Source: Bolinopsis microptera
Lineage: Eukaryota; Ctenophora; Tentaculata; Lobata; Bolinopsidae
Length of the DNA: 64,000 nucleotides
Direction: 5' to 3'
Assembly: GCF_026151205.1 (NCBI RefSeq)
Contig: NC_087072.1
Coordinates: 5,070,084 to 5,134,083, forward strand
Part shown: piece by piece, positions 6,951-52,534 of the stretch
Position numbering within the stretch: position 1 is the first letter of the stretch
Layout: each line of letters opens with the position of its first letter
Notes under the pieces: generated by a model
What the model saw: only the letters and a program-made list of their open reading frames with translations
The model's database searches: none
Told to the model about the DNA's origin: nothing
Made by a program: the position numbers and the translations under genes

Positions 6951-8909
6951 TAAATAAATAAATAAATAAATAAAGTCAATTTTTACAGCACAGCAATATA
7001 TATATCTAAATATCAGATCCTCTGTAATCATAATGTATAAAAAGGAGCTTTTCTCTGTGCTGAAGGATGAATCAAGGCAGATCATGGTTCTGTTAGCAGG
7101 CCACCCTAGTTATGGACAATACATATATATAAAATAATTAAATTATAATTTTAAAATTGTGTCAAGATTGAACTAAAACATAACTCAGGGTAAAATAGAC
7201 GTATTCCCTTCGTCAAATTAACTATTTACAATACTAAACTTAAACAAACTCCGGGTAAAATAAACGTAATCCCTTTGTCAAACTTGCTATTTACAATAAG
7301 TTAATAAATTAATACGGTTGAAAATTATTTCATATTCAATAACAATGTAGCATCAATATAATTGATACAAATGAGGAGCATACATAGCAGTGAGAATTGC
7401 ACATAACAGGAGGACTGGAGGTATGGAGCAATAATGATTGACAGTGCACCTTTCCACTGATGTTCCTAATTTCCTGTAATAGCTTAATAGGCATGGAAAT
7501 ACTTTGATTGCAGGGGATAGATTGGATTCACTTATGTACTGAGATAACTTAACCGAAATAACATAACTGCCTAGATACATTGGCTAGTGTTGGGTGGGAT
7601 CATGAATTTATCGTAAGAGTTGTCCCCTTGGTAATTCTCATCAGTTAGCACCATATTCATAAGAGTTTCTTTGTATAACTTAGAAAATTTCTTAACGTCG
7701 TCACACTCTCTAAGGGACTTTGGTAATATGTTCCAGGCCTTAGTTCCTAGATAGTTAAACTCCTTGTGAGATCTTGATTTAGGAGTATAAAGATTGCAGT
7801 TTTCTGCCTCACGTGATCCACCAGAAATATACGAGAATTTCCCGATAAAATGCTTTGGACATGTTTCATTGATTATACGGTACATATATGAGCTAAGATG
7901 AACCTGTCGTCTCAAATGGAGAGGAAGCCATCCCATATTTTTGTATACATTAACCGACCTCTCTCTGATGTTTACATCTAGGGCTATTTTAGCAACCTTT
8001 TTGTACATGATATCTAACTCTCCTAGTCGTTTTTTATATGTTCTTGACCAGATGGTGTCTAAGTAGTCAAAATGTGGCAACATAAGTGCATTAGCAAACA
8101 TCTTCCTGAACTTAAGAGGGAGAAGTTTTTTTGATCTATACATAGCACCAATTCTTTTCGATATCTTTTTCTTAATGTTATCAATATGTTCATTAAATGT
8201 CAATCTGCTGTCAACTATAAGTCCAAGGTACTTATGGGATTTAGTTTCACAGATTACCAAAGTAAGGTCATCACAAATTTCAACAAGGATGGCATCAAGG
8301 TTAGGCTTAGAGTCAAGGATCATTAGTTTTGTTTTTTCATTATTCAGGGATAGTTTATTAGCCTGAAGCCATCTGATAACTAATTTCAACTCTTGTTTGA
8401 TGTTACCATAGTTTCCTCTAGATATATTGTCAAAATATAATGCACCGTCATCAGCAAATAGATAAGGTTTAGAAAATAGGCATGCATTAGGCAGGTCATT
8501 GATAAAAATGCTGAATAGAATTGGTCCTAATATACTTCCTTGAGGCACTCCAGAGTTCAATGAATGTAAACTGCTTATCCTACTCCCAACTCTAGTTTGC
8601 TGTAATCTATCTGTGAGGAAGCTCCTAAACCAGCTCAATGCAGTATCTTTTATTCCATAATGCTTCAGCTTTTGAATGAGAATATCATGGTTAACAGTAT
8701 CAAATGCCTTTCTGATGTCCAGGAAGATAATTGCAGGATGCTTGGCACTGTTCTTAGCAGTAAATATACGATCAAACAGATCTAACATGAGATAAGTTGT
8801 AGAGTGATCTTTACGGAAACCATATTGATGCTCTGAAAGTATTCCCTTTTCATCAAGATATTGAGTCAGTTGGGAGTTCACACAAAATTCGATGCACTTT
8901 CCAAGATTT
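6951..8909 (-). mobile_element. 5'-truncated LINE nested in the composite insertion
   Basis: On the minus strand the element runs from about 8909 (truncated 5' end) to a TTTA microsatellite tail at about 6951-6974. The sequence around it is a single repeat unit cut in two: CTAAGTCAA on the left and ATTTTTCAAAG on the right are contiguous in the intact copy at 6603-6623. This defines the insertion site. I see no convincing target-site duplication. About 600 bp between the RT ORF and the tail would be 3' UTR. Confidence 0.75.
7571..8909 (-). CDS. LINE reverse transcriptase (N-terminally truncated)
   Basis: This is the reverse transcriptase part of a non-LTR retrotransposon. Motifs in order: IIFLDIRKAFDTVNHD (motif A), SGVPQGSILGPILFSIFI (motif B), and FADD (motif C, where many LINEs have YADD), then the thumb-like region KSHKYLGL..D. 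The frame is open for about 445 codons to the stop at 7571. There is no AP-endonuclease domain, because the copy is truncated within the RT N-terminus. The first codons of the longer open frame (to 8932) come from the host repeat, not the LINE. It resembles the Jockey/CR1/L2 group; I cannot assign the clade more finely. It probably cannot move by itself. Confidence 0.9.
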
Positions 8910-9028
8910 TTCAAAGTTTTTCTGAAAACCACTTTTCTCCATGTTTCATGATACCCTGTCCATTATTGACCAAAAATATCATTTTTAAAAAATAATTTTT
9001 CTCGAAATTCTAAATTTTTCAGGTTTTC

Positions 9029-17900: not shown

Positions 17901-20900
17901 AAAAACGAAGACTAGTAAGAGTGAACCTAACCTTGCCACCATTGAGAGAATCATGGTTGCAGCGTTCAGCTCGTGTGGTTGTACCCCTTCTGTTTTGTCA
18001 ACCAGAAGATCAAGTAGGACCCTAGATGGTAAGGTAAGTTAACAAAAGAAAGGCGTGATAATATGAAAATTAATAACATAGAGAAACACACCTTCAGATT
18101 AACCCCTATTCCCCATTAACTCGGTTCTGGTAACCCTGGTAACCTGGCGATGGTAACTTCAGTAACCCAAGTAACTAACTTGATAGCTCTAGGACTGACG
18201 TGCTCCTTCTCGATCAGTAACTTGACCAGCTCTTTCAACGACATCAGTTCCCCAATAGTGCTACCGTAAGTCATGTTCATAAGGTTCTTCGCCACTGCTT
18301 CTGGACCAGGCCTGAAGGTTAAAGTTATCTAATAGTAATATGTTGATTTTGTGATATAAGAAAGCTTCACGATTTCCTCAAAGACAAAATAACATACCAC
18401 TCATACTTAATCTCCTGTCCAGTACTAACTTCTTTCCGGATACAGGTTTGATGTAAAGTCTGATGTAAGCGTTCACTACCGCATCTTTCACATTCCGATC
18501 AGGATTGAAGACAAGGACCAGCATCTTCCTGACCCCCAACTCCGCTGCCTTCAGTCCAAACTCAAACGCGGAAACTGCGGGGAACAGTGTAGGTCATAAT
18601 AATAGTTCAATTTAAGCGTTCAACCCGACAATTAATCAGTAAATTAAATAAATACATCTGATTATTCAGTAAATTTAAAGCATTCTCAGATTTAGTTTAG
18701 GGACTGTTTGACTCGTGCTGTTATGAGTATTATTTGACATCGTTTAATATCTGCGTGAGCCAAACCAGGTTGGTTAAACAATAGTGTAATAATTGTCGTA
18801 AATATGTAGTGCGTGAATATTCTAATTTAAATTATTCCTAATTGGGGTATGGTTTGGCTGCCGTTTAACTATTTTAACGCCATCGAATCATCGATATTAA
18901 AGCGATGCGGGGGTGACTATATTTACCGTCAACATTTCTAATAATAACACCGCTAGGACAAGTTGCCAACTGTCTGCTTGTTTGCACCAACTGTCTAATT
19001 AGTTGTTTATCCAGCGGAGGACTGAACAAACATTCCAATCAGATCACACCTGTTTAGGTTGCCATTAATCGGTCCTAGCTATCATCCGTGCTAATTTGGC
19101 AGCAGATTTATTCGATTAAAATCTAATTATTGTTGATCGTTTAGTAGCTTTATTCGTTCACCCAGATTGTGTTGAATGAAGCAATGCACCATGAGTTTTG
19201 GACAGTGTGTCATTTGTCGAGAGGTTCTAGCGGATGATATGGTGGCAACGCTCTGTGGGCATGTTTTCCATCGCAAGTGTTTGGCAACATGGCTACAGCA
19301 ATCACGAATCTGTCCTAATTGTCGGTCCTACTGTTCCAGTGACATGTGGATCAGACTATATCCCGAGATAACGCACGCCACGTGTAGCGACTCTACGTGC
19401 AATAAAGAGGGCACGTGTAAATCCGGCGCGGTCGTCAAAGCAACAAGGCGCCAGGTCCTGCAACTACAACAACAATGTGCGGCCCTCTCTGACTATATAG
19501 ACTCGTTAGGATCACACATAGAGCAGTTTCGGCAGAACATAAACAACACTACTCGGATGTTACGGGACATCCACACGATACTGGATGACATGGCGGACCC
19601 GCGCAGTCCTACACTGGAGGAGGTCCTGACCCCTGTTGAGAGTGCAGGGGGAGAGGAGAGGAGTAGACAAACTCTCTTTTCTAGAGCTGACTTGTCAGAC
19701 TTACAGACTGTTGTTCAGTATTTGGAGAATAGGATAACTTTCTATGAGAATTTGTACGGGAAAAAGGACGAAGGGTCTGAGCTGTAGTTTACAATCTTAA
19801 ACAGTCCATTTTGTGGGACGTGGGTTAATTTATGACTATTTTTGAAGCGATGGGGTTATTTTTATTTGATTTTTGACTATGAATATTCACTTTGATTGAA
19901 CACAGTATTTAATTGAATAAATTACTTGTGACTTTGCAAATAAATATTTTTAAAAGAACAAGTTCTCACTTAGAAAGTCGATACTCTCCAGAATATCGGA
20001 AGCACTCTTGCTGGCGAGCAGCTGAGAAACCAGCACAATAACTCGGTGCATCTGCTCGGTAAACAGCACACAATCCCTCAGGTACTGCACTATCAGGTCC
20101 TGCTTTTGTATCGTCTCCAGTTTCTTAGCAGTTTCAGGGTCAAGGTCCGTCTCCATTGCTTCGTCAGTCTGAGCTGAGGGTTCTGACTCCTCTGATTCCT
20201 GGGTACCTGCAGCGATGTACTGTGTGAGGGTAGAATAATTGTATTCATTGCTCGTAACTCTCATCACTGATTAACGATTTATTATGTATTTGGAACTGTA
20301 ATATATTATTCTATTAAAGTAAAAATAAATTCAAACCAAAGTTTGAATCATCAAAGATCATGACCCTACCATAGTAAATCTATTCGGATTCTTACTGGTG
20401 GATTGTTGAGGCAGTTCTTCCTTCAACACTTTCAACTTCTCCACCTCTACTTTTAATTTCTCCATCAGATTGTCCAGGGATAGTTTGTCAGAGTAAGGAT
20501 TGCATCCCAAGTACGTGTTAATAAAAACCAGGGCGTTTTTCCTCACATTGCTACTCTTGTCCTGAATGGACCCGACCACTTTCTCCACTAGGTCCTGTTG
20601 TCGGGGGATGGGCACACAGCGCTGTTCTATCAGCTTAGTCAGGATCTGGATTGACTTGCTCCGGACAAATGCGTTTTGGTCGTGTATATGCAGTTCCAAC
20701 CTACGTGAGTGATTAAATCGAAATAGGCATTTTTCAAAAAGTTATTAATTAAGTAGTTAAGGTTTGTGACAGGAAGAAGTCAACCAATATTAAATCCACA
20801 CTTCGTTGAAATCACCCCTATATAGTATATTTATAAATCGCCCTTACATTGAGTAGTGAGTACGTGTATAACCAACACCACGAACATGATCTAACTGTCT

Positions 20901-31057: not shown

Positions 31058-32868
31058 TTACTTCCCTCGAATGGAGGACGCTCTGAAGTTTGCCTTAGCT
31101 TTTTGCTTTTCGGCTTCTTCTCGAATCTTTTTCTGAAAAGCCTCCTTCTTTCGCTTTGAAATAGCCTCACCAGGTAGCACGAATTTGTTCCCTTTCTTGA
31201 TACCCAATTTGGTGGGTTTCTTGTTTTCTTTTGCAATGCTAGATCCAGGCTTGAAGTACGGGGTTGCTTTAAACGCTGTCTGTTCTTTGAGCTCCTTCAG
31301 ATGATTTTCTAATAATTTAGCTCTGCTCTGATTAGGATCCGTATATCTCTTATCGAATGAGAATGGCTTCAAATCTACTGCCTTCTTTTCAGTCTTATCA
31401 GGTTTCATAGTTGCACCTTTCTTACTGAAGTCAGGCACAGGTTGAGCTTTAAACTCTTTTGGCTTTTCCTCAACAAACTTCCTTTTCTTTCCCTTTGTAA
31501 GTTTAGGAGTCACTGCTTTAGTGGATGGTTTATCAGATTTTACTCTTGCTGGGAGACCAGCAGGCTTTTTGACAGCTTTAGGCACTGGTGCAGCCTTGAA
31601 CTTGTACTTCCTCATGGCATCTACTTCCTCCTTTTCCTTCTCAGCATGAGACTTGTGGTTGACGGGACGTCTTCTTTGACCTCTCATTCGTCGGATGAAT
31701 TCAGGAGTTTTAGGAACAGTGTGAGCAAGCTTAGGTTTCTGAAAGTGAGGCTTCATGACAACAGCATTTGATGTTTGTTTTACCTTTCCGCTACGCTTGA
31801 GGGCTGCCTGTTTCCTTAATTCTAGTGTTCTGTTTGGCTTTGGAAGGATAGGAGCTTGATGCCTGTAAACTCTTGGTTTTATAACAATTTTACCACATGC
31901 AACAGTTGAGATGCCTGGCTTAGAAGATTCGGCTATACTCTGTTTTTCATTCGTTGCTTTCTTAATTCGGACTGATCTTCTAGGAGTTGAATGAGAACGG
32001 AGAGTTGGACCAAATGATTCATCTGGATCTGAAATAAATGATATTACAATAAACCCCAGTTGTTGTATCTATATCCTGAATATTATTTTCATCATTTTTC
32101 AGTCAACTTCGGAAAATCAAAAAGTAAATATATTTCTGATACTATACTTTAATGAGCTGAAATGTAGCTGTGCTTGCTTATTAGATGACAGTCAAGACGA
32201 TGGTGACGGTTATTTTTTTAATCATAACTCAAGTTTTAGCTGTTTTTAAGGATTTTCCCAATGGTCATCTAGCCTCACCAACAAGTTTAGGAATAAATGG
32301 GCATGGGTTTACCCCTCCCTCCCCCTCAGAGAAACTCAGAAAAAAAAGTATGAAAGCAGTTTCCTATATCTATTGGAAAGATCTACTGGAAAGATTACAT
32401 CTAGCAATTAAATGTGGATTTTGGTAGGGAAGTGAGGACTATTTGTTGGACATTGGACACTTGACAGTTAAATGTTGTAGATTTATTGGTCTAAATGGTT
32501 AATAATCGAATAATTTTTTAACATGTGACAATTCATAACTGGATTAAGTAATATTAATTATAATATTGCAAGACTTACCATTTAGTTTGATTCTTTTTCT
32601 AGGTTGTATAATGTCACCAACAAGCCCTGAGCAATACTTTTATGTCACAATAATTACAAGTTTTACAAATAGCTAGTCGAAAGAATCAACTTGTATGCTA
32701 CATAAGAACTTGGGAGATGATACTGAGAAATTAAAGGTCCAAAAGAATCTAATTCACTAACAAACCTTCTTCAAAATCTCTACTTAATCTTCTAGGAGTT
32801 CCAGTGCTAACACAAGAGTTGTTGAAGGGGTAGTTCTGTGGGCAATCAATTCCAAGAGTGTTGTCCAT
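31058..32868 (-). CDS. TPX2: TPX2, spindle assembly factor (3 exons, 373 aa)
   Basis: Microtubule-associated protein that nucleates spindle microtubules in mitosis. Exons 32766-32868, 32579-32626 and 31058-32028 join in phase 1 both times; 374 codons with the stop. The match to TPX2 is in the C-terminal repeats: TVPKTPEFIRRMRGQRRRP, EKEKEEVDAMRKYKFKA, FKAQPVPDF, KPFSFDKRY, and TAFKATPYFKP; then a charged helix KRKKEAFQKKIREEAEKQ. It is about half the length of vertebrate TPX2 (~750). The N-terminus does not show the aromatic-rich Aurora-A-binding segment; instead it has STGTPRRLSRDFEE and a second TPRRS site near the start of exon 3. Either this lineage has a short TPX2, or more 5' exons exist. 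Confidence 0.85.
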
Positions 32869-35852: not shown

Positions 35853-36372
35853 CACAAAGAGAAACATCTTTTGTTTTTGTTTTAAACATTTAATCGTAAT
35901 TGGTATTTCATATCAACAATAAGCGACTGTTATCGCATCACGCATATTGTCATTGATCAAGCAATCTTAAATAAACACGGATACTCATCTGAAATTATTT
36001 TCGCTTCCACTAAATCGCTCGCCCAAATTTAAAAAAGATCTTGTGAAAAGGCCCCAAAGTGTGAAAGTGACTTCATTCGATGTATTGTTCAACGTTGCTC
36101 TATCCAGAGCCCTTGCGCTTGCAGTAGCGCGCGCCCGCCTCACGGCCCGCCTCTTGACTTGTGAAACAAGCGCGCCCGAAGTGGCGCGAAAGCACATGGT
36201 TAGGTGAATGTTCAACGCTGATTCCGAATAATCTCCTCCCCCCATCACACATGATGTAGGGTAAAAATGCTCATCTTAAAGTTACGGTGTACGAGCAAAA
36301 TTTGTTTTGGTAATGTGACAACTGTGATACTAATATTAGAAAAACTTGTAGGTTTATAAGTATAACCTACCA

Positions 36373-36452
36373 GGACGCGCGCCGAGTTGTGAGTTGGACT
36401 CGTCGACGGTCCTGATATTTGAAACAAATATTTTACGAGTATCACCCGTTAA
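36373..36452 (+). repeat. Repeat shared with 35478-35556
   Basis: GAGTTGGACTCGTC and ATATTTTACG.G.ATCA.CCGTTAAA occur in the same order near 35478-35556 and here, with a variable middle. Confidence 0.6.
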
Positions 36453-36549
36453 AGAAAAACGCAATTCAAATTCGATTGTGTAGGCGCCAGGGTTAGGGTT
36501 GTATTTCGCTTTGGGACTGTGGTTAAAGGGTTGTCATACGTTGTAGACC

Positions 36550-36632
36550 TGCTGCGCACGAGTGCGCAGCTGTATCGTGGCTTTCGCCACGATACACTTA
36601 GTGAAACGACAATGGGGGTCACGACGTGATAC
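36550..36632 (-). repeat. Two perfect hairpins plus repeat partner of 34732-34795
   Basis: CTGCGCAC-GA-GTGCGCAG is followed by TGTATCGTGGC-TTTC-GCCACGATACA, an 11-bp perfect stem with a 4-base loop. The right part matches 34732-34795 inverted. It looks like the terminal hairpin of a small element. Confidence 0.65.
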
Positions 36633-37152
36633 AAGGTAAGGGTTACGGACTTAGAGTTTATGTAAATCCATTTTGTTTGGCAGCCAAACCGTAAAAACCC
36701 AAAGTCACTTGATAATTGTTGGGCGAGCAAAATAATATTAATAAGAGCCAATCACAAATCACTGTACACCACACAACATGGAACTTCAAAATTCGAGATT
36801 TTTCTAAAAGGGTCACCCCCTCAGGAAAGTCTGATCAAAGACCCGAAAATGAGCCAAAAAAGAGAAGGGGTCCTTTGGCGTGTTCAAAAGTTCATACGGC
36901 CACCTGACCATGATGATTAACAAGACTTTTAGTTGCAGGTAACGGTTGAAGACCTCTCTGTTGTACCACTGTGTTATCTCTGTTTTCACTACTATTATAC
37001 ACTGCACCGCCTACAAAAGGAGGGACTTTTCAATTAACTGTCTCAATCGGTACAATTATAAAAACAATTTTGAGTTTGTAACGTTCTCAATTCTCATGCT
37101 ACAATAAAATGACTAATAAACAGTCTTAGAATCATCTGAGTGGAAGACTATT

Positions 37153-39753
37153 TTAAACCACACTGTTATCACAGAAAATCTTACGTCTGTTCCCTCTGTT
37201 GAAGTTTGACGTCCAGGTCCGTAACCATCTGTTGGGGTAAATGATCTCCCGCCAGTGTTTCCAACACATAACGTTGCTGATCGAAGTTATCACTACTTGT
37301 ATATCCAGGGCTAGCTGCTGACTCGACAGTTCCACTCCCAATCTACAGGAAATGGTTATATAAAGTGTGGGTGGACTTATTCCTCATGCTTGAGATAAAA
37401 AAAATCGGATCACCATAAGGGGTCGTTCACATATTATTACGTAATCAGCCGAGGGGGGGGGGGGGGGGGGGGAGGGTTCCAAATGATTACGCTAGTATAG
37501 TTTTAACACAATAGCTATGTGTAAACAGTAAAACTGATTACGGGGGGGGGGGGGGGGGGGGGGGGGTAAAATTGCCAAAAAATTGATTACGTAATATGTG
37601 AACGACCCCATCATAGATCATACCCATACATCAATATATCAAGAGTTCGCCAAATTTTCACAACTTTAAGCTGTAGAATTTTTTGTTTTCTTGAGTTTTC
37701 TTAATGATACAAAAACATACATATGTAGCTCACTTTTTTAAAACCACGTATATGGCAATACAGATGACGTCAGCGGCTATCACCACTCCGGTGATGATAG
37801 CGAGTTTTTTTATCAGGGCATGATCCAGGTCCTTGATTGACTTGAAGTGAGCTCGGTGTTCCCCACGATTACCCTTCACTTCCATTATGTGTCCTGGTAT
37901 AATACATATTAGTTCAGTGCCAGTGGACATAATATGACAGTAACAACAATGGCACATAATATCAAGAATTAAATAACTTATTGCGACATATATGTAGATA
38001 TTTAAAGATATCAATTTGTGAATTATGAGTTTTTCGGTAGCCTACTCACCGGCATTGTTAGCCTGAGTTGCCATGTTTTCTCGGAGTGGTTTCATGAAGA
38101 GGTACATTAGGATACAGTGTAGCGCTACTATGCACACCAGTCCCAGTGAGCGGAATATCAAGCTGAAACTGTTTCAAATGTAACACAATTAATCGTTATT
38201 GAAATGGCTATCACCCAATCGAACATATTCCACTCGACGTCAATACAAGTACAACATGGTGATTGGTGTCAGGATTGAAATAAGACTAGGGATAGTGGAT
38301 ATAGACTATAGATAAGAGTGGCCAGTCAAGGTGACTAAAAGAGTTTCAATTTTACATTCATCATACTCATTGGTCGTTTTATTTGACTTAGTTGGGGGGG
38401 GGGGGGGGGGGGGGTGTTCACTACACTTTTTTACACCTTAAATTACACTTAACCAAATCATCTTCTCAAAATCTTCTTTTTTTCTATTCTATATTCTCCA
38501 TCAGTCTTCACATAGTACATTTCCAAAGGCAAAACAGGGGTAAAGCATACCTTTGATGAGACAAAAATTTCACTTTTACACACTTTTAAGGCTGTTTTAC
38601 ACTACATTTTTGCCTATTTTAAGTATGGTGTAAAAATTGTAGAGAACCCCCCCCCCTCGCCACTTATTATCACAGAAAGAAATGTCCCAAAATATCTGTT
38701 AGCAAGAATATATTCACTCCAGTAGTTGTGTACCACAAACCTGCTTGATTTTCCAGATTTGCAAAACCCGTTCTCTATCTTGTACTCCATGATATCAAGG
38801 TTCGGCGTGAAGTAGAGAATTATGAAGAAAACCACGAGACCAGCAAATAAAACTGAAAACAGTTGTGTCAAAATTAATATCATATTTGCATTTAACTTCA
38901 AGATTGGCTTGACTTTCAAAGGCGATGGATCATTATTGTTAACTCTAACACCTCATACACTTAATCCTTATTCCCATTAAACAGTTCCACACATAATGAT
39001 TGCACTAAGTCACAAAATGAAGTTCCCCTACTCACACAGGGCGGGTAAGATAATGTAAGAACTGAGAAAGAGCACGAATTTAGAAGCAGTTCTCTTGATC
39101 ATGTTGAGTTGGTAGAAAAACCTCTGTCTGGACCACAGTAAGACAGTTACCGGTGTCATACACAGAGGGTACAGGATCACCGATATCTGCATGGGAATTG
39201 GGAATGAGTGGGTAAATATCAAAAATCAATCTTGAAACGAAATTAACTTTCTCCTTTAGTACTTTTAGTAGTGGTTGAACATTAAAACAGACTCACCCCA
39301 CGCCAAGTTTTGCAGGTCTCTTCAGAAGTGCCGGCCACTTTGGAGCCCCACAAGTTAATAACCAGCTGGGTATCAGTCAGGAAGAAGGAGGCCATTACCA
39401 GAGCGTACATTGCAGCGTTTCGCTTGTCAACCTTCTTTCCTCTGAGAAGATCAGTCTATGTTAAAAACTGGAACAATCCTGTAAACAGGAGAGACTTCGT
39501 CTGCCAATTTATCAGTCAATTTTGGTCCGTTATTATGCAACATCGCTAGAGTCACCGTTACACTACGTATTGAGATTTGAGGGAAAAAAGGCAACGAAAC
39601 GTAAGACTCGTGAAAACAAACACAAGATAAAACTATAAATAGCACTAATAACCTGAGTCTCCTGCCGAAGAAGAAGATTGCACATTGCACCAGGAGTGTA
39701 AAAATGTAAACCATCAGGAGCACCCTGATAGTTAGGAATACTTGCTGCCACAT
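37153..39753 (-). CDS. Unrecognised seven-transmembrane protein (7 exons, 323 aa)
   Basis: Exons (minus) 39653-39753, 39297-39441, 39036-39186, 38741-38852, 38050-38162, 37734-37893 and 37153-37342 join with consistent phases (2,0,1,2,1,2) into 324 codons with stop. About seven hydrophobic helices: VLLMVYIFTLLVQCAIFFF; MYALVMASFFLTDTQLVI; VILYPLCMTPVTVLLW; the exon 3/4 helix FVLFLSSYIILPALC...GLVVFFIILYF; LGLVCIVALHCILMYLF; LAIITGVVIAADVICIAIYVV; LDIQVVITSISNVMC. Loops carry basic runs (RRLRGKKVDKR, SRQRFFYQ) and the tail is basic (HWREIIYPNRWLR), so an outside N-terminus and receptor-like topology are plausible. I see no DRY or NPxxY motif and cannot place the family. Two G-run foldback elements sit in introns 4 and 6. 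Confidence 0.75.
37419..37609. mobile_element. 191-bp inverted-repeat element with two internal G runs
   Basis: GGGGTCGTTCACATATTA and its inverse TAATATGTGAACGACCCC end the element, next to ATTACGTAATCA in both orientations. Inside are G runs of 20 (37453-37472) and 25 (37542-37566). No clear target duplication. It lies in intron 6 of the 7TM gene. Confidence 0.75.
38394..38656. mobile_element. 263-bp inverted-repeat element ending in G and C runs
   Basis: Begins with 21 G then TGTTCACTACACTTTTTTAC, and ends with GTAAAAATTGTAGAGAA then 10 C, an imperfect inverted repeat. No obvious target duplication. It lies in intron 4 of the 7TM gene. Confidence 0.65.
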
Positions 39754-41679
39754 TCTCTAATCTACATCTGAATAATCTGACTGCTTTCTTCTATCCAGGG
39801 TATCCACTATCCAATGTACATCCAGAAATCAACTGAAAGTTTTCAGCGTCCACTCCGAAACACAAATATTAGATAAAATGCGGAAAAGACAAACTCTGTA
39901 TGTGTTACAAGAAAAATTTCCAAAGAAAACTATTCGCGACAAATACAAAGTGGTGGTGTAGATGGTGTCCCAGGATTATCGTCACGTGAAGGGTCAACTC
40001 GAGCTACTCAATATACGAATTTGCGACATCGAGATGCCCAATTTCAAAATGTCAAGAATTCAGACAACGGTATCATTGAGTAAAAGTAAATAGTAATAGT
40101 TATTGACTATTGTTCAAGGAATAGACGATTACACGGGTCAGATTTCTCAAGAAAAATAGAGGGCAAAAAAATAAATACTGATATTTGCAGTTGCACTACC
40201 GTTAAATATCTTTAAAATCTGTCTATGTATAAATTACTACGTCGTGTTCTAATATTTCAAATATAAAATACATTCTTTCAATGCGAAGGACCTAAGATGA
40301 GAAGTACGTACGGTACCCGGCTTAAAGTACGTACGGTACAACCTTTCCTAAAGGTACGAACCGTACCTTTCCTCTTGAGGTACAAAATGGGAAACGTTTT
40401 AATTTTGTATTTTATCTATTCAACTTCAAGTTGCTGAATTAGGCAAAATATTGTGAAAGTCGACACAGCAGCAAAGGAATATGGGTGACGAACGTATAAT
40501 ACTGCATAAAACTAATAGCTTATTTCGTAATCTCGTGATTAAGCAAATGCTGTAGACTGCCATGCCAGCGTCATGGCAGTTAAATATTTCAGAACAGAGT
40601 AAAAATTTCAGAACAGCAGACAATTTTTAACAAATTTTGCTAAATTGTGGCTTTTGTACCTTCTGGTTCAGTTTAAAGGTACTTGCCGTACAGCCATTTT
40701 TAAAGGTACGTACCGCACGTACTTCTCTTCTTAGTCAGATCCGAAAGTGTTTCACATTATATGGAAATTTTAACTTCCAAAAAATATTTTTTTTAAATGG
40801 AGCAAAAGGATCTAGATTGCAGTGCCGGAATTCCAAAATTGTGAGGCCATAAAGCGAAATGTGAAATTTTTTATCACAGCACACAGATTTTATCTGTGAA
40901 GATAAAATGGCACGCAAAATCGCAAATGTTCATCCAAGCAACGGTCCATTTAAGTGTAGTTTCTAATAAATAGATTTCAACATGATCGTTATAATTGCAG
41001 AGCAGGGACAGGTGTGAGTTGTGACTGGTTGGTGATTGAGAGGAGTAATTATCCCAGTTATCGTCTTCCTAACACTTCTCCTCGTCGCATTGCTTCAAAC
41101 TGCCTGAAATAACACAAATATTAGTGATGGGAAATTTGATCAAAACATAAGAAAACACTGCCCTGATTCGTTGCTTTTTGTAAGTCTCCCAACACAGCAG
41201 GAGAAGTGTTAGGGTGAGGTTGCCACTTGTATTGAATAAAATAGTAATATATTCTTGTGCTGTTTTTATACAGTTAGTTTTCTAGACAAGGAAATTTATT
41301 TGTCGACCATTAACAGCTACCTTTTTTACAGTGACCAAGCTTTACCTACTATTATTGCAGCTCCCGGAAATGGAGGCGCAGTGTTTCATTATATAAATAC
41401 GAGGGTAAACTGCGAGTCTGTGTGGTTCAATAGATAAACTGCAAGGTAATGTGGAAATATGAAGGAGAAAACTTGCTAGCTGTTTGAGTTCATCCGTAGT
41501 TTGAGCGATTAACTCTCAGATAGGTTTGATGCACTGATGGACAGAATTGATGTAGATTTAAAAAATATTCATAGGTTTTCGTTAAGGATACAACTGTTTA
41601 AACATCATGAATTGTGGTAGGTAAAACCAGTAGAAGGCATGGCACCACTCCAGTCTCCAACCCTAGTAATAGTTAACTA
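39754..41679. other. Upstream of the 7TM gene, no firm gene
   Basis: Contains the palindromic element at 40292-40734. A short plus-strand frame near 40999-41106 (CDWLVIERSNYPSYRLPN, ending TAA) follows a TTGCAG acceptor-like site and could be a last exon, but nothing upstream connects to it. Confidence 0.35.
40292..40734. repeat. 443-bp element with CTAAGAWGAGAAGTACGT inverted ends
   Basis: CTAAGATGAGAAGTACGTAC opens and GTACTTCTCTTCTTAG closes the segment. GTACGTACGGTACC-like words repeat inside both arms (near 40304, 40327, 40350, 40680, 40706). No ORF; target duplication not found. Confidence 0.7.
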
Positions 41680-42140
41680 ATGATGAGACCATACGGCTTA
41701 CCCTTCGTCCGTCTGAGCAATCCTACATCTGGTCCCTTTAACAGAGCCCTAGTGAGCCAGGGAGAGGACCTCCTCAACACACCTCTGTATTGTACCCTAT
41801 CACACTATGTGTTGTAGCTATGAAGACTCAAGATGGGCCCTGTTATTCACGTTTTAACTGCTTCATTTAAACAGTTGACCGCACCCATAGAATAGCAGAC
41901 CCACAATGCAGGACTATAAACTGGTTCCAGTAACACGTTATTGGTACTGGTAGTGGAGTGAGACCAGTTAGGAGGAGAGCCGTCACCCCACTAGACATAT
42001 TACCACCTCAGATCCCTTCTCCACAAAGAGTAACGCCTCCCCCAAAATGTGAGTACCCCCCCCCCCACATCTCGGAAATGTCCTCCTCTGATCTGTGCAG
42101 GAAGCTGCATTGTTATTCCCCTAAAACATACAATGCTATT
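41680..42140 (+). other. Possible small exons of an unrecognised gene
   Basis: A 45-codon ATG frame (41680-41817, starting MMRPYGLPFVRLSNP) and a proline-rich frame (41958-42140, VRPVRRRAVTPLDILPPQIP, with GTGAGT near 42050) look more protein-like than chance. I could not join them in frame, so this is a lead rather than a gene call. Confidence 0.2.
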
Positions 42141-42607
42141 TAGAGAGCCCCAGTGACCCTGATAGCGACACACAGCTTTAACACCAGTTGTTTAGTGAGT
42201 TTGTTTTGCAGGGTGCACATCGTTTCCATGAGGGGAACTCCTTTTTTGTTGGCAGGAACATATTACTTTGAGAACAGTAGCCATCGTCGTTATTTATTTG
42301 TTTACTGCTATAATGTTTAGTCCTACAAGTTAATCTTGAAAGCAAATTATGCACACTCAGTTTTAAATTCTTCTTGAGTTGTAAAATTCTCAGAGGGAAA
42401 ACAACTCGTAGGTGAACGAGTAAATATTCTAGTAATCTCAAATTGATTTGTTTACTTTCAGCTTTAGATTTTGCTTTAAATACAATGATCATTGTGAGTC
42501 AATAACAATGAATAAGATCAAGAAATACCCAAGTTTTGTGGAGTTTTCTTCTTAAATGATGAATAATTAACATAATATATTATATAATAGGATAAAACGT
42601 GATACAT

Positions 42608-45600
42608 ATGTTGGTGAGAGTGGCGGTTCTTCTTCCTCTGTTATCATACATCCTGAACCCGATAACAACTCAACCTGAGCCAACTCAACCTGCTCCAACC
42701 AAACCTGAGCCAACTAAACCTGATCCAACCAAACCTGAGCCAACTCAACCTAATCCAACTCAACCTGCTCCAACCAAACCAGCTCCAACCGATCCTGTTC
42801 CAACCAAACCTGAGCCATCCAAACTTGCTCCAACCAAACCTGAGCCAACTCAACCTGCTCCAACCAAACCTGAGCCAACCAAACTTGCTCCAACCAAACC
42901 TGAGCCAACTCAACCTGTTCCAACCAAACTTGCTCCAACCAAACCAGCTCCAACCGATCCTGTTCCAACCAAACCTGAGCCAACTCAACCTGCTCCAACC
43001 GATCCTGTTCCAACCGAACCTGAGCCAACCAAACTTGCTCCAACCAAACCTGAGCCAACTCAACCTGCTTCAACCAAACCTGATCCAACTGAAAAAGAAA
43101 ACGAATCTAGTACAGAAAAACCATCTTTCAGTGATTACACATCCGGTTCTGCAACAGCTGCACCAGATCCAACTTCTCCATTAACAACAACTTCTGTTCA
43201 CAAATGGGCAACAGTTACCAAAGTGCCACGGGATCATACTCAAGGTAAATTTGTAATTATAGTAATGATATGTTTTCGTAATCTCAGTTCATGCAACCAA
43301 AATTCGGAATTGCCGAACAGTCTTCTAGGAGTCTAGGCCTATATTTAAGAATAAATTATTTCCTAGTGCAGGAATATAACAATAAGGTAACATATCTTGC
43401 ATTGACTGATGAATTTCAGAAGACACGACTTGTGAATTCGTACAGTATCACGGTTACATAAAGATACAATGCACAGTTGTAGATAAGGCCACAAACAAGA
43501 CTAAGACGTTCTTCAAGTGTCCGAATTCTAACGATTACTACTCGGTGGTAAAACGAAGCTGCAAGTACCAACAATTTTCTGAGGCATGCCCTAACGATCC
43601 TATGTTTTACCAGGTAAGTTTGCTCAAGATAAGAGTAGATTTATGGGTACCGCGACAATTGACCCCCCGACAATTGACGCGAAATCTAGAGTTTAGTACG
43701 ACAATTGACCCCCTACGTAATAACACTGGCGTCAATTGTCGCGAAATCTAGAGTTTAGTACGACAATTGACCCCCTATGTAATAACGGGGGTGATGCAAC
43801 GTCAATTAATGTCAATTAATGTCAATTAATGTCAATTAATGTCAATTAATGTCAATGTCAGTTTTGCAAAATTTTGGAATACTGACATTAATTGACACGA
43901 TATTTTTCGACCGGAGATTATGTAGTTCTACCATATTTTTAGCACTTTAGAACGTTTATATCATCGATTTATTCACTACTATCACATATAATGGAAATGT
44001 GAAAAAATTCAGATCATTAAACAATAAAACTAAAATAATACGGTTTTCCGAAATTTAATTTTCTTAAATGGGCGTGGCCATCCAAGGGCGTGGTTCTCAA
44101 CATCATCAGAACTTAAAACCCACATTAAACGAAATGCCTTCATGACATTTATATTTGAATAACGAATCTTAAACAGCTAACATTACTCCTTCATACTAAA
44201 AAAGCCGATTCTAGATATTTTACCTGAATAAGAAACCAATAAAAAATGGGCGTGGCCGGTGGGGACCGAAGATGGAAGAGTTGGAAGCTGAAATTTTTTT
44301 TGGTGGTCTTTGAACCTAAGGATCAACAGATAAGAACATACTCATAATTATTCAAGGACATTTTGTTTTTTTGAACCGGTCTAATATAACTTACTTGAAC
44401 CGGTCTAATATAACTAATAATCTTTAATATTTATCGAATAATGATAATCTCAAATTTCAAGACAAATTAATTTCAATTAATGTCAATTAATGTCAATTAA
44501 TGTCACTTAATGTCAATTAATGTCAATTAATGTCAATGTCAGTTTGGGGTTTTTATGGAATACTGACATTAATTGACGATGCATCACCCCCGTAATAACA
44601 CTGGCGTCAATTGTCGCGAAATCTAGGGCTTAGTGCGACAATTGACCCCCCCCCCATGTAATTACACTGGGGTCAATTGATCGGGTTAGGGTTAGGGTTA
44701 GGGTTAGAGTTAGAGTTAGGGTGAGGGTTCCGGTTAGGGCTCCGGTTAGGGTTAGGGTTCCGGTAAAGGTTAAATTAGGGTTAGGGTTAGGGTTCCGGTT
44801 AGGGTTTGGCCTAGGGTTAGGGTTCCGGTTAGGGCTCCGGTTAGGGTTAAGGTTAGGGTTCCGGTAAGGGTTAAATTAGGGTTAGGGTTAGGGTTTCGGT
44901 TAGGGTTAGGGTTAATTGTATTAAATTATATTTTTGGGGGGTCAATTGTCGGGGGGTCAATATTCGGGGGGTCAATTGTCGGGGGGTTAATTGTCGGGTG
45001 TCAATTGTCTGGGGTCAATTGTAAGGGGGTCAATTGTCGGGGGGTCAATTGTCGGTGGGTCAATTGTCGCCCACCCGATTTATGGACTAGATTTTAAGCT
45101 TTTGTCACATAACTCACATTCACTCACACAGTTAGAGTTGCTATTTGGTAAGAGACCGATTTTGTAAATATACATACTACATCCTAATAAATGTATAACC
45201 TTAAACTGAAAACTAATCGTGCTCTACAGATGTGCGGGGCAGTGAGGCTTTGTAAAGACACAGGAAAAGGAGGATTTACAGCGATAGAGGAGATGCATTA
45301 CCACGACAACTACATGTGTGCCTATGCAGCATGTGACAACGGATACTACACCGCCGGAACAACTGACATTTGTCAAGACGGACAAAGATGTAAGAATGCG
45401 GACTACAACGATAACACGTGCTCCGAACACACCACTTCAGATTCATACACGTGCAGAAATAACTGGATATCCTCCACTGCCATACCTTCCAATCAGCTCT
45501 GTGATGGAAACTGCGATTGTCCCGGTATCTGTGATGACGAGGCAGTGTGCAACGGTCTTACCTACGGTATGTTCTGTCCTAGTAACGTGAAAGTGAATTA

Positions 45601-48600
45601 CACCACTTACGTACCACCGTTCTGGATATGTGATGGATATGACGACTGTGCTGGCGGGGTGGATGAGGAGAACTGTAAGGTGAGGCCACAATGTAAGCTT
45701 TCGTATACTTATGGTCGTAGGGACAGGGGACCTCTTACAAACCGAACCCGATGTGCACCACTTAGAAGCGACATATTTCCGTACTGTGCTGATTATTCCG
45801 ATCAACTAAACTGTATTGATTCTACTATAGCAAACCTAACTTGTTTGAGAGGGGGCGACCTTGTTTCTGTTGCTGATAGAATGATATGTCATGACATTTC
45901 TGGTCTCCGACTATGTGATGACGGATTTGAGAATATGTGCGAAGAAATCGGTATAACTTGTAAGGTCCACAAACACCAACTTTGTGACGAAGCAAAGGAT
46001 TGTATTAACGGAGCAGACGAGTTGCATGTCAGTTGCCGTACTTGGAGCAAATCTGTATGTAAGAGAGCATTTGGTATGAAGAACAGATTATTGAAAGTAC
46101 CTTTGAGCTGGATAAATGACGGATACAAGGACTGTGAAGATGGTATAGATGAAGGAGTAGTTTACCCAACCTGCGGTCTAACCCCAGCCACAATAAGACT
46201 CAAGAAAGATGTTGAAGAATGTAGAGAGGTTTTCCTCTGCGGTTTTCCCCCCTCTGGTCACGTGGAATTTAGCAAACTATGTCACAGAGCTGATACATGT
46301 GGCAACGAAGACGCTGTTTGCCGAGTAGCCCTTGATTCTCCGAAGATAGCTCAGAAAGTTTCGGAGTACATGGGCAGACACACAATATCGTATTGTCACA
46401 AAGGATTAGCTAATATAGCTCGTATGGCTGGAAACTGCTCAAATATAATTCATAAAGAACTTGATCTTAATATTCTAGGAAGAACAGAGATATTGCTGAC
46501 CGTTCCGCAAACTATATTTGATTGCAAATATGTGTACGGTGAGATGTATGTCTATCTTGCCTGCATTGGCCAGTGTGCCACTTCCATTTGTCCACTTGAG
46601 GATCCTATAAGACATGATTCCTGTCTTGGGCAGTACCCTTCAAGAGTTTACACACTTGCGGATAACAACTTTCTGACCTTTCTTCTGCCGTATGGAGACA
46701 ACAAATACCACAACAATTTGTTTCCTTGTGATAATGGCAGATGTATTCCTTACAAGCAAGTTTGTAATCTGGCTAACGATTGTGGAGATTTTTCAGACGA
46801 AACAAAATGTACGAACCACTTCATATGCCCAAAAAGTTCCAACTATATGCCCCTTTCGAGTGTTTGTGATGGAAAACCAGATTGTCAAGACTTTTCAGAC
46901 GAATGTAATGACAGATGCAATGTAAGAATCATAGAGAATGTGGCTCTCAAGAGTTTAGCCTGGTTTTTAGGTTCATCGGCTACATTTTTGAACCTTATTA
47001 TAATCCTACGAGGGTTATACACTTTTAAAAATGCTTCAACAGTGGCAATGCTTCTTAACAAACTTCTCATCCTCCTCATAGCATTTGGTGACCTTTTGAT
47101 AGGGATATACCTTTTAGCTATATCTATCTATCATGAATTGCGATACCATAGTTATTGCCCCAACAGATTCGAATGGTTGACCAGTACATCATGTGCTGTC
47201 TTGGGCATCGTCAATACTGTGGGCTCCCAGCTGTCACTCTTTTCAATGACAATCCTTAGTTTAACTCGGGTTATTAGAATGAACACAATGTCGATCAGCG
47301 ACGAGAGAACATTTAAATCTAGTTTTCTTGTCTTTTTAGCGAGTCTTTTGATTTTTGGAGCCTCCTTCCTGTTGGCTGTTGTACCTTTGTTTCGCAACTT
47401 TGAAGACTTCTTTGTCAACGGAATCAACTATCCTGGAAACCCACTTTTCATAGGGTCAGTCAAGAAGACTAAACATCTAGAAATTTTCGAAGAATACTAT
47501 GGAAGACTACGAAGTAGCGAACTATCATGGAAAAGCATAGACAGATTGGTGGTTGATATGTTTAGTGAAGAGTATGGAGGAATCACCAGGAACCAGGTTC
47601 ATTTCTATGGAAACGCAGGAGTATGCCTCTTCAAATATTTTGTAAATTCTGATGACCCTCAACGAATTTATGTGTGGTGTACCCTATTTCTTAACATCAT
47701 ATGCTTTGCTGCAATAACGATGGCCTATATCATCATTCACTTCATTTCGACCAAGTCCTCCAGTCAATTTGCAGTAAATGAGGCGAACAAACAACTCAAA
47801 AGTAGAAACAAAAGACTCCAAAGGAAAATAACCTTAATTATCGGGACAGATTTTTGTTGCTGGATACCTTTTATTGTAATGTGTTTCCTCCATTCCTTAG
47901 AAGTAACGGATGCTAGTCCTTACTACTCTCTGTTCTCAATTGTTGTCCTGCCCATAAACTCAGTCATCAACCCGCTACTATACGACGATACAATCGGTGT
48001 TCTGGTTTCAAAGATATTAAGATGGCTCTGTAAGCCTTTCAGAGCTGCTAAACAGAAAGAAACCGACACGATCGTGACTTGCGCAACACATCCTTCTCTC
48101 ATGACATCTACAGCTAATACTGGTGTTGAAGAGAATGTCCGCCGTGACGATACTACAGTTTCAACAAGTGGCCACAACGTTGAGGATGAAAGAAACTTTG
48201 TTCGTCAAAACCAGGTCATATCAGAAATATTGTCCAAAGCTTTGAGATCTAGATCACATTCTCGAAGTAAAGAGAAAGAATCGATAGTTGCGAAAACAGG
48301 TGAAAGATGTGATGCAGCTGCTCCTCAGAATGAAGCTTTGGAGATTTTAGAAAAAAGACATGCAAGGAGAAATGACAGATCAGTTAGTGTTATTTCTGAA
48401 AAACCGAATGACGAAACACCAAAACATGCAAGGAGGATTAACCGATCAGTTAGTGTTATTTCTGAAATACTAAATGAGGAAACACCAAAAACTGGAAAAA
48501 GTAAAAAATGGAAGTCCCAAAGAGCAATCACGATAGCAGAGGAAACAGAATTATATGACACTAACAACAGAGTCCTTAACGAAAAAACAAGAATGTCGGG

Positions 48601-48859
48601 GGATTTCGCGACCAGGAAGAAGAGAACACTCAAATCCATAAAAAAGATTGTTCGTAGACCTTCCGCTGTGCTGGCCAAAATAATTCTGCCAAAAAGTCCA
48701 TCAAATTCAACCGAGAAAACATCTGAAGAAACAGTATCATCATTACACTCAGATGAAGAGTTATATCATATTTACCAGTTCACCGAACATTTAGCTGATG
48801 AAGGACAAGAGAAAATAGATTTAGAAATGGCTGCCATTTCTGAAGAGGAAAGGGAATGA
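42608..48859 (+). CDS. LDLa-module 7TM receptor with proline-rich stalk (3 exons, 1,486 aa)
   Basis: Large cell-surface receptor related to LGR/GRL101-type GPCRs. Exons 42608-43244, 43420-43613 and 45230-48859 join in phases 1 and 0. ATG at 42608 starts a signal peptide (LVRVAVLLPLLSYIL). Next is a ~140-residue stalk of PEPTKPAPTQ-type repeats, then a Cys-rich region. LDL-receptor class A modules follow; the clearest are CIPYKQVCNLANDCGDFSDE and LSSVCDGKPDCQDFSDEC just before the membrane, with further ones (CDGYDDCAGGVDEENC) upstream. The 7TM domain spans ~847-1200: GDLLIGIYLLAISIYHELRY in TM2, NSVINPLLY (NPxxY) in TM7. TM3 ends LTRV where most class A receptors have D/ERY. The ~285-residue tail is basic and Ser-rich, with RRNDRSVSVISE repeated as RRINRSVSVISE. 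There are no leucine-rich repeats. The ligand is unknown. Confidence 0.9.
42670..43092 (+). repeat. Coding minisatellite (P-x-P-T units)
   Basis: Units of 12 bp such as CCAACCAAACCTGAG, in higher-order blocks of 24-48 bp, encode the Pro/Thr stalk of the receptor. Near-identical blocks suggest recent expansion. The repeat creates long spurious ORFs on both strands. Confidence 0.9.
43787..44591. mobile_element. 805-bp inverted-repeat element with 8-bp duplication
   Basis: GTAATAAC flanks it at 43779-43786 and 44592-44599. The ends are GGGGGTGATGCAACGTCAAT and ATTGACGATGCATCACCCCC. Both arms carry tandem GTCAATTAAT units. The empty target is visible nearby: CGTAATAACACTGGCGTC at 43715-43732 continues across the site without the insert. 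No ORF. Confidence 0.9.
44684..44914 (+). repeat. Interstitial telomere-like GGTTAG array
   Basis: About 230 bp of GGGTTA repeats with variant units (GGTTCCG, GGTAAAG, TTAAATTAG). The TTAGGG unit matches the common animal telomere repeat; here it is internal, degenerate and inside an intron. Confidence 0.9.
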
Positions 48860-50066
48860 TTTAAGTGTTATTCAAATATGAACAAAATTTGCTACCTCAT
48901 CTATAATTATACATAGTAGATATGTACATATAAGTATAATTAAGTCTCTTTTTAAGGACATTACTCACTTTGCAAAGATGTAGTTACAATTTAAGGCATG
49001 TGACCCTCCAGCCATTGTTATTTTGTATGAAAAATAAAAAGTCCAGTTTTCTTTGTCTAATTAGTTCATTGATGAAGTCGTGATAAGTAAAGCTTACTTT
49101 GGTGCATTCAATTTTTGTATGTTCCACCAAACAAGCTGCTCTTACTTATTGTTTAGACTTTAATAAAATGATCACACTTAAGCATTTGGGAGAATTGTTT
49201 TTTATGCCACATGATATTTAGGGGTCTCTGGGAAGCTACTTTTTTATTTTAATACAATTCTACATACATATATTCTGACACGATCTTAACAAGGCGCTTT
49301 AATGGATTTACTGCTCGCTCAAATAATGACTTTACTGTCGGCAGGTCACATAGCCAACACCATCACATCATCGTGAACCCAGGGGGGGGGGGGGGAGACC
49401 TCAGGACCTGCTCACTGCTCACTAGAGCTCCACAGGATAAACAATAAACATGGCTATCTATATCCTTATCGTTTACTAACCAAGAGAAACAAAACGTTTC
49501 TTGTAAAGATAATGGTACTGTTTCCAATGTAGGTGAACACAGAAACCCATTACAGAGCAGAACACGTGCCTCACTTTTGTGAGATCGTTCAGTACGTGCC
49601 AAATTTCTGTGTGTTTTGATAACACTGTCCGAGCCTGTGTCATGGACATGTTGTCCTTATTTTATCCTCCATTCCACTCGGTTTAATGGCAATGCTAACT
49701 GATATACTGCATTTTGTCTGATGTTGTTGACACATGTAAATTTAGTAGCATCCTCGAGTACACAGGCCATCCAGTCATTTTCGGGGTCTTCCTCTCGATC
49801 TCTCAATAGTTATGTTTCCACTCCAGTAGAAAATTGGTAGAAACTGTACTAGTTATTTTTCATTTATTGAATTTACAGTCGCCGGTTTCTGGCCCAATAA
49901 CAAGCTGAAGGGCTTCTTACTGGGTCCCTAGTCTCAACAATAGTACCAACTTTAAACGGTACCTTTCATTTCCATTTTATAAGAGAAGTTATTTGGAATT
50001 ATCAATATTTGAAAGTTAAGCAAACTATAAATTACATCTTTACAGTATTTTCAATTCGCAAAGGCA
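48860..50066. other. 3' flank of the receptor gene, no gene seen
   Basis: GAAAAATAAAAAG near 49028 could serve as polyadenylation signal. A 14-base G run lies at 49382-49395. The minus-strand 79-codon frame at 49363-49602 shows no domain. Confidence 0.4.
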
Positions 50067-50074
50067 ACGACCGT

Positions 50075-50211
50075 TAGGGACAAAAGAAAATCGCGATTAT
50101 TTTGCCCAAAAATCGCGATACCGCGATTTTTAACAGACTATACATAAGACTATACATAAATTTTTTCGCAAATAATAGGAAAAATCGCGATTTCCTTTTG
50201 TCCCTGGCCTG
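50075..50211. mobile_element. 137-bp hAT-like mini-element with 8-bp duplication
   Basis: ACGACCGT flanks both sides (50067-50074, 50212-50219). It starts TAGGGACAAAAGAAAATCG and ends CGATTTCCTTTTGTCCCTGG...CCTG, so it is nearly a palindrome (AAATCGCGAT occurs in both arms). No coding capacity. Confidence 0.85.
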
Positions 50212-50219
50212 ACGACCGT

Positions 50220-50919
50220 CGTTTAATGATGCACAGTTTGATCATAATTCTTATTGTTATGCTTCTCAGTAAAACAGCCCACAATCAAACTTATGTCATG
50301 AATGAGAAATTAAACACATCTAGATTGAAGGAATTACGCAAATTTAGTTGAACACATTATTACATGGTCGAAACAATTAAATAAAGTTCAAATCTTGTTA
50401 CTCAGATGTATTCATGTAAGTATTATACATAATTTATGGAATATGGATAAACTAAAATTGCTTGAAAATATGACAAAGGGATTAAACCGGGATGGTCCCC
50501 AGATGGGTTGAGAAGTAGACCCTCTGATTGTTATTCTCCAGTCCTTTTTGTTTTTAGTCTCCGTCTTTTCCTATCACCTTCGCTTTCACGCAGGAAATCT
50601 GGGGTGTGCTGCTTAAAGTGGACAATGTTTGTGTCTCTTTGCAGTGAGAGTGTCTAATGGTGTTATAATCATGATAGGTCAAAAGTTTGTAGTGATATAA
50701 CTCATAACTGTCAGTCTACAATTCTAAGCTGTCAGGGTTGATACGGAATCTAAGATGAACAGTTTGAGATTATTCCTCAGCTCTAACTAAAGAAAGTTTC
50801 GGAAAGGACTTTCAGACCACTCCCTCATTTTGAAACCTGACTTCATGTGTTGAGCACTTTTCTATCTAACCTTCTGTCCGTGTCTATTTAAACCTGCTCA
50901 CCTATTCAGTTTGACATTG
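50220..50919. other. 3' flank of the transporter gene, no gene seen
   Basis: No supported exon or repeat; probably 3' UTR in part. Confidence 0.4.
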
Positions 50920-52534
50920 CTACTGAACCTCTGTCATAGAAAAAACAACCATAACCTGAACCACACTGACCACCACAGCAGTGATTATAACAGATGATGT
51001 GGAGGCAAATGAGACCATGCCCGACCCAGCAATCCCACCAATCAAGCCAATTGTGGTTGCGATGCTAGTTCCTACTTCAAAGTTTGACGTTCCGAAGTAA
51101 TTCACGTCGTAGAGGACAAAGGTGTAGCCCAAACCAATTATCCCGTTCAAAAACTTCGTTATGAAGTTAGTTAAAATCGCTACTACAAGGTTTTGTTGTG
51201 TGAGCATCAGTATAAAGTTTGCTACGTATACTAGGGAAACAAACCCCTGCAGTTTACGAAATCCAATCTTGTCTTTCATCCAGTGCATAAGGAATGCAGA
51301 GGGCATACCTGCGAAGTTAACAAGTGCCAGTAACAAGAGTTCCGGCCCTTGAGTCATGGTAACTGAGCAATGAATGTTTGGTCCTGATTCATTGATCTTA
51401 AGCAGCTGGATCAACGCTGGAACGAGGAGGGTGGTCAACCAGCTATTAAAAGTAATACAAGCAATAAGGAGCCCCATTTTTGTGGTTCTAGCTGCGAAGT
51501 TTGAAACAATCACTGTTTCTGGCTGTTCTGCTTCGTCTTCTGATCCTTCTATTTGTGGGCCTCTTGTATCTTTTACACAGAAGTGAACCATGATGATCGG
51601 AAGAATGAGTACGGGCAATGTCGAGAAAAGTAGACACTTCCTCCATCCAATCCAATCAAGTAGTAGGAACCCCAAAACTGATGACCACATTGACCAGGCA
51701 ATAAAGATTATGTGTGTTATAAATAAAATCCTGTCTAGAATCTCTTTATTGTAAGCTATGTCAGCGGCCCAAACATAAAGACTGTTGTATCTGATTCCAC
51801 AACAAAAGCCAAGGAGGGCTCGAGCAAGAAGAAGAGCTGTATAGTTTGCAATTATGCCAAGCATAACTAAACTGCATACACTCAGATATAGCGAGATTAA
51901 AACCGTCTTCCGTTTTCCAAACCTGAGCACAATATCATTAAATAAATTTTTCGAATTTCTGTATTACTACTAGCAAATGTTTCACTGCAGCGTGAGGGTT
52001 ACAGTCAAAATCGTATAGAAAAATACTTTGACCCAACCCTTTTGCCAATGGTCCTGCAATCATAACTGAAACTGCTAAGGAGAAGAACAGAATGTAATCC
52101 AATAATCCTTCTTTCCAATGAGACAGTCCAATGTCACATGAAACTTGTTGAGTTAACATTCCTGATACGTGAGGAAATATGGTTATCAGGCTTCCTCGTG
52201 TGTTTTACAGAGTAGGAGTGGGGTTTTCAATACAAAGAAGGCTATCTTGTAAAATGCAATGTACAGAAAGAAATTAAATTTTTCACTTCAAAAATAAATC
52301 GGGACAGAAGTAGATACAACTTTGAAAGTTACACCAACCAGGCAAATCCATCTCTGTTCCATCTGCAAACTCGCATAGAATACAACATATCAACAGCATC
52401 TTATCATTCCTCGTCCAAGTTGTTTGTTGCTGGTCGTCTTTATCAACCAGGACGTCATTCTCACCGTTTTTCATTATTATTTGGAAGCTTCTTCTGGTTT
52501 GAGTGTGTACTATCATAACATTGAAACGATCCAT
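50920..52534 (-). CDS. Major-facilitator transporter, SLC22/SVOP-like (3 exons, 440 aa)
   Basis: Integral membrane transporter of the major facilitator superfamily; substrate unknown. Exons 52339-52534, 52038-52161 and 50920-51922 join in phases 1 and 2 to 441 codons with stop. The N-terminal block LSHWKEGLLDYILFFSLAVS resembles the first periplasmic loop and TM2 of SV2/SVOP and SLC22 proteins. The TM2-TM3 signature is AKGFGKRKT, formed across the exon 2/3 junction. About 11 hydrophobic segments follow, with a charged central loop (EGSEDEAEQPETV) between the two halves. TM1 is split by the first intron. The usual first ~20 residues look cytosolic and polar. Vertebrate relatives are ~550 residues, so this one is rather short at both ends. 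Confidence 0.85.

Follow-up and report, generated by a model that had tools for sequence, protein, structure and literature searches.

A leucine-rich-repeat-free receptor gene with LDLa modules in Bolinopsis microptera, probably an unusual representative of the LDLRR-GPCR kind

Background

Which kind of receptor is encoded at positions 42608 to 48859 of the window (the whole stretch of 64 kb that was analysed), where a repetitive stalk, several LDLa modules and a class A seven-transmembrane (7TM) domain seem to be combined in a single protein? The first-pass annotation considered this architecture to be one that it could not name. Yet the combination of LDLa modules, no leucine-rich repeats (LRRs) and a relaxin-receptor-like TM region already received the name LDLRR-GPCR in 2008, as described in PMC2396169. 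Our results indicated that the receptor is probably a member of this kind, named in Ciona. More precisely, it would combine a mucin-like stalk, then six or more modules of LDLa or LDLa-like type, and an LRR-free 7TM domain of the LGR/relaxin-receptor type; together with the mechanism proposed below, this reading is given a probability of about 0.7. The layout has been known since 2008 in sea squirts, and the receptor is an unusual representative of it, modest as a discovery.

Results

Gene model and stalk

The gene was organized in three exons on the forward strand. Exon 1 (42608..43244) opens with the ATG at 42608 and encodes a hydrophobic leader, the PxPT stalk and a Ser/Thr-rich linker, up to a GTAAAT donor with phase 1 out. 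Exon 2 (43420..43613, forward strand) is Cys-rich, with phase 1 in and phase 0 out, while the remaining ectodomain, the entire 7TM domain and the tail are all carried by the single exon 3 (45230..48859, forward strand), where the stop codon ends at 48859. Once spliced in frame, the three exons yielded 1486 residues with a sole stop at the end. Since this join was accompanied by GT/AG intron borders and by matching phases (1 and 0), the three-exon model put forward in the first-pass annotation was retained with its coordinates. The order along the protein was hydrophobic leader, 27 P-x-P-T-x units, Cys-rich ectodomain, class A 7TM domain and 291-residue tail. From stop to stop (45191-48859), the exon-3 frame spanned 1222 residues; the longest forward frame encountered in 200 first-order resamples of this stretch was 167 residues.

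Exon 2 displayed no Pfam family at cut-off; it resembled a GRF zinc finger below threshold, which was taken as chance. Within the stretch 48860-50200 were three candidate poly(A) signals, the first being AATAAA at 49033..49038 (forward strand) and the others lying at 49162 and 49443. No paralogues were found inside the 64-kb window, where every match at E<=1 fell on exon 2 or exon 3 of this gene itself (the query excluded exon 1). The gene is predicted to be intact, as one model running from leader to tail.

The leader was about 22 residues long (by eye) and coincided with a hydropathy peak at residues 1-19. Behind it, a 15-bp minisatellite (42672..43089, forward strand; 27.9 copies according to TRF) encodes P-x-P-T-[K/Q/D/E], and its 27 in-frame units agreed with the coding minisatellite claimed before. 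The stalk would be O-glycosylated and mucin-like. The array was open in four of the six reading frames, so that its openness is no proof of coding. Changes between units occurred 14, 19 and 23 times at codon positions 1, 2 and 3, respectively, i.e. silent sites displayed no clear excess, which was counted against our preferred explanation. By itself, the repeat is thus little coding evidence; such evidence is supplied by the leader and the phase-matched splice sites.

Intron 2 and neighbouring genes

Intron 2 (43614..45229, forward strand) contained short tandem repeats and GGGTTA runs. At 43660-43860 and 44465-45070, these runs were accompanied by GTCAATTAAT arrays and GGGGGGTCAATTGTC arrays, and the repeats were partly inverted around a core (by eye), resembling a non-autonomous mobile element. 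Elsewhere in the window, a reverse transcriptase orf (7574-8962, reverse strand) matched PF00078 at 3e-32. A 638-residue open frame (1-1914, forward strand) matched no Pfam family at E<=0.01; in appearance, it resembles a Penelope-type reverse transcriptase. Pfam further recorded pieces of genes coding for a condensin subunit (Cnd1; 15734-16213, reverse strand), a RING finger protein (19176-19784, forward strand), an MFS transporter (50920-51963, reverse strand) and, below cut-off, a TPX2-like protein (31061-32068, reverse strand). One tRNA-Ser was found by Rfam and tRNA scans.

LDLa modules and search for LRRs

The entire exon-3 frame matched the Pfam LDLa family (PF00057) at 3e-17 over three stretches. 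When exon 3 was divided into nine pieces, four of them matched PF00057, the last with two modules, which brought the number of modules to five; three of these four pieces scored under the Pfam curated cut-off. All modules lie on the forward strand: module B (residues 393-426, 45575..45676; 24.0 bits for a cut-off of 24.1), module C (521-546, 45959..46036; 19.7 bits, under cut-off), module D (554-592, 46058..46174; 16.8 bits, under cut-off), and modules E (777-804, 46727..46810) and F (810-840, 46826..46918), whose common piece reached 59 bits (5.1e-16) in two stretches. TM1 follows module F by about ten residues. An additional LDLa-like module, A (352-384, 45452..45550), had no PF00057 match; in a shuffle test based on a 14-column matrix built from the five Pfam-supported modules, its score was reached by 17 of 2000 shuffles. 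The several LDLa modules of the earlier description were hence recovered, five by Pfam (three below cut-off) and a sixth by the shuffle test. Three other LDLa-like cysteine spacings, picked by reading the cysteine list, were not counted as modules, namely those around residues 432-472 (score reached by 315 of 2000 shuffles), 608-641 (1582 of 2000) and 482-514 (outside the eight best in the shuffle test).

In a hand alignment of the six modules, only E departed from the calcium acids D, D, D, E, with N, D, D, E instead. The position-3 cysteine is replaced by Ala in module A, Val in modules B and D and Met in module F; it is absent from module C, where the loop is shorter, and kept in module E. 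Module D further displayed Asn instead of the position-4 cysteine. In these assignments, all set by hand, no module received a position-1 cysteine, possible candidates being C341 (11 residues ahead of module A) and C514 (7 residues ahead of module C). The modules possibly represent a two-disulfide LDLa variant that has retained its calcium acids. Loss of the position-3 cysteine together with kept calcium acids had gone unmentioned in the first-pass annotation.

No LRR family was recorded by Pfam, either with the entire exon-3 frame or with its nine pieces. A loose LRR pattern, applied to the six frames of 36001-50900, gave 10 matches, 8 of which had an internal stop. The two open ones (39998 and 41232) were isolated and lay upstream of exon 1, and every match within intron 2 contained stops. 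Both approaches being negative, the earlier claim of LDLa modules without LRRs was confirmed.

The 7TM domain

The domain, considered up to NPLLY (46946..47983, forward strand), was assigned to LGR-type class A by Pfam (PF00001, 5.3e-12), PDB matches and anchor residues. Among 30 distinct PDB sequences at E<=0.001 with the entire domain, a set composed of solved receptors only, RXFP1 ranked first with 57.4 bits, followed by FSHR (47.7), LHCGR (40.0) and TSHR (33.3); LGR4, at 22.2 to 23.4 bits, did not surpass unrelated class A receptors such as the alpha-1B adrenergic receptor (24.3). The two halves of the domain disagreed, TM1-4 alone favouring FSHR (32.6 vs 20.6 bits for RXFP1) and TM5-7 alone RXFP1 (43.9 vs 20.2 bits for FSHR), and this was also counted against our preferred explanation. 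By score, tree aside, the domain can be regarded as LGR-type and closest to types C and A. A hydropathy scan (cut-off 1.6) flagged TM1, 2, 4, 5 and 6; the unflagged TM3 and TM7 were placed by homology.

The class A features N1.50, D2.50, C3.25, R3.50, Y5.58, W6.48, P6.50 and NPxxY (N7.49, P7.50 and Y7.53) were present, as was D6.44, and departures from usual class A consisted of T3.49, V3.51, F4.50 and N6.30. In accordance with the earlier description of a class A-like domain whose TM3 has TRV and no acid at 3.49, PDB alignment and residue anchors placed T3.49-R3.50-V3.51 at 47264..47272 (forward strand), replacing D/E-R-Y. Since the acid at 3.49 and the Trp at 4.50, the two class A features that are missing, are common but not universal, class A membership stands despite T3.49 and F4.50. 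The TM3 motif also varies among the nearest solved relatives (E-K-Y in RXFP1, E-R-W in FSHR), and a class A receptor with ECW in place of the full motif is described in PMC4814114.

PDB alignments and residue anchors further revealed, in extracellular loop 2, a cysteine-free insert of about 60 residues without RXFP1 counterpart (47420..47599, forward strand), a feature on which the first-pass annotation was silent. Between TM4 and the loop-2 cysteine, local alignments skipped 60 query residues and none of RXFP1. A 70-residue piece covering the insert (47423-47632) matched nothing among PDB sequences at E<=10. Two AlphaFold models from the single sequence were poor (mean pLDDT 42.6 and 31.5), and the first showed two helices in the insert, mostly with pLDDT <50. 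Given this poor quality, the models lend no support to a contact between an LDLa module and loop 2.

Cytoplasmic tail

The tail had been described as basic, repeated and 285 residues long. Translation gave 291 residues after NPLLY (47984..48856, forward strand) that are only mildly basic overall (51 K+R, 48 D+E and 56 S+T), the first 230 being more so (46 K+R vs 32 D+E). The repeated character held, as the tandem-repeat scan and translation displayed two copies of a 22-residue (66 bp) unit with RSVSVISE at 48358..48490 (forward strand).

Discussion

Assignment and proposed mechanism

At least one LDLa module in the ectodomain, no LRR and a 7TM domain that is most RXFP1-like (with TM1-4 alone favouring FSHR) are the features that the receptor shares with the Ciona kind. 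Its probable membership was judged, tree aside, from the domains it contains and from the solved receptor that scores best. One scan of bacterial and archaeal contigs with the 7TM domain gave 28 pattern matches and one scan of viral contigs with the exon-3 frame gave 3, none of them confirmed; both collections are non-animal and say little here.

As to how such a receptor might work, the outer LDLa modules would use calcium and acidic patches to capture a protein ligand from outside the cell. Modules E and F, some ten residues from TM1, would then press on the enlarged loop 2 as a tethered activator; we infer such direct activation of the bundle because these two well-matched modules adjoin TM1 and a longer loop 2. 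According to PMC4561518, activation of RXFP1 and RXFP2 depends on the LDLa module, which may be a tethered ligand acting on the TM domain, and the ligand contacts exoloop 2. R3.50, Y5.58, W6.48 and NPxxY would pass ordinary class A activation on to the G protein, across a barrier that may be lowered by the fact that the usual 3.49/3.50/6.30 lock could not form, and the tail would be phosphorylated for desensitisation. Since 3.49 and 6.30 (the usual lock partner, here Asn) are both non-acidic, basal activity is plausibly altered, as the first-pass annotation proposed, and may be raised; a neutral 3.49 is not always accompanied by raised basal activity. In rhodopsin, the ionic lock joins 3.49/3.50 to 6.30/6.34, and it is reported to be missing from many crystal structures (PMC3343417). 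Doubtful, in our opinion, is the combined proposal that LDLa modules entirely replace the LRRs as sensor and built-in agonist, with E and F seated on TM1 and acting together with a loop-2 lid, that the lost lock acids prime the bundle and that the LDLa modules are mostly of a two-disulfide type.

Alternative explanations

T3.49, V3.51, N6.30 and F4.50, as well as the LDLa array and the Ser/Thr-rich tail, would also suit an atypical scavenging receptor that couples poorly for want of D/E3.49 and Tyr3.51 and serves chiefly to take up LDLa ligands. The conservation of R3.50, D2.50, Y5.58, CWxP and NPxxY is not what one would expect of drift once coupling had been lost, and such a receptor seems unlikely. 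It could also be argued that two genes have been merged, the stalk exon 1 being part of another gene, for a secreted mucin-like protein, while the receptor starts upstream elsewhere or inside exon 3. The four open frames of the stalk repeat and the abundance of repeats in intron 2 are compatible with this view, as is the fact that the gene model is a prediction from genomic sequence. It is nevertheless very unlikely, as both intron phases fit and donors and acceptors are good; besides, the exon-3 frame read from its upstream ATG has no hydrophobic leader (by eye), hydropathy peaks are absent between model residues 19 and 852, and exon 1 read beyond its donor meets a stop after 92 bases.

A true GRL101 or another type C LGR, with LRR exons missing from the assembly or situated in intron 2, would account for RXFP1 being the best whole-domain match and for the many LDLa modules, which GRL101 also displays (PMC8286064). 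This is highly improbable, since the LRR-pattern matches of intron 2 all contain stops and the LDLa array runs unbroken into TM1 within exon 3, leaving no room for membrane-side LRRs.

The preferred reading, i.e. an LRR-free receptor of the LDLRR-GPCR kind, suggests that RXFP-like 7TM domains can function on LDLa modules alone and bears on how the LDLa module of relaxin receptors activates the helix bundle. With LDLa modules beside TM1 and no LRR between them, it would offer a natural minimal system for the tethered-agonist idea.

Comparison with known systems

Similar multi-LDLa receptors occur in cnidarian sequence databases; they were not used as evidence. In the description given in PMC4079206, cnidarian multi-LDLa receptors labelled type GRL101 cluster basal to type C1 LGRs; compared by description, they likewise carry multiple LDLa modules, but are described as LGRs. 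GRL101 itself (type C2 LGR) resembles the present receptor by multiple LDLa modules joined to an LGR-type 7TM domain. It differs by its LRRs, none of which were found here: according to the respective descriptions, Lymnaea GRL101 combines twelve LDLa modules with six LRRs (PMC8286064), and a starfish GRL101-like protein carries six LDLa modules and a smaller number of LRRs than the mouse protein it was compared with (PMC6267866). The receptor thus shares the LGR-type class A 7TM domain of type C LGRs (RXFP, GRL101) and lacks their LRR ectodomain, for which reason it is not called an LGR here. RXFP1 and RXFP2 (type C1 LGRs) are close by the LDLa in their ectodomain and, for RXFP1, by the best whole-domain match among solved 7TM domains. 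In contrast to them, the present receptor has no LRRs and displays LDLa modules beside TM1 instead of a single N-terminal one, and it differs from RXFP1 by TRV instead of E-K-Y and by its long loop 2.

For the Ciona LDLRR-GPCRs, again compared by description, the PxPT stalk, the long loop 2 and TRV are without mention in the account consulted; DRY is absent from the main text of PMC2396169, so that TRV has no comparison there. In the portions of the literature available to us, no description of these three features in such receptors was found, and we do not claim them as unreported. Fourteen of these receptors are described in Ciona intestinalis, with LDLa modules, no LRR and an INSL3/relaxin-receptor-like TM region (Kamesh et al. 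2008, PMC2396169), their LDLa modules being single or in tandems of 2-10 (PMC2396169). The likeness of the present receptor to them, as they are described, lies in its LDLa modules, its freedom from LRRs and its TM region of the INSL3/relaxin-receptor type.
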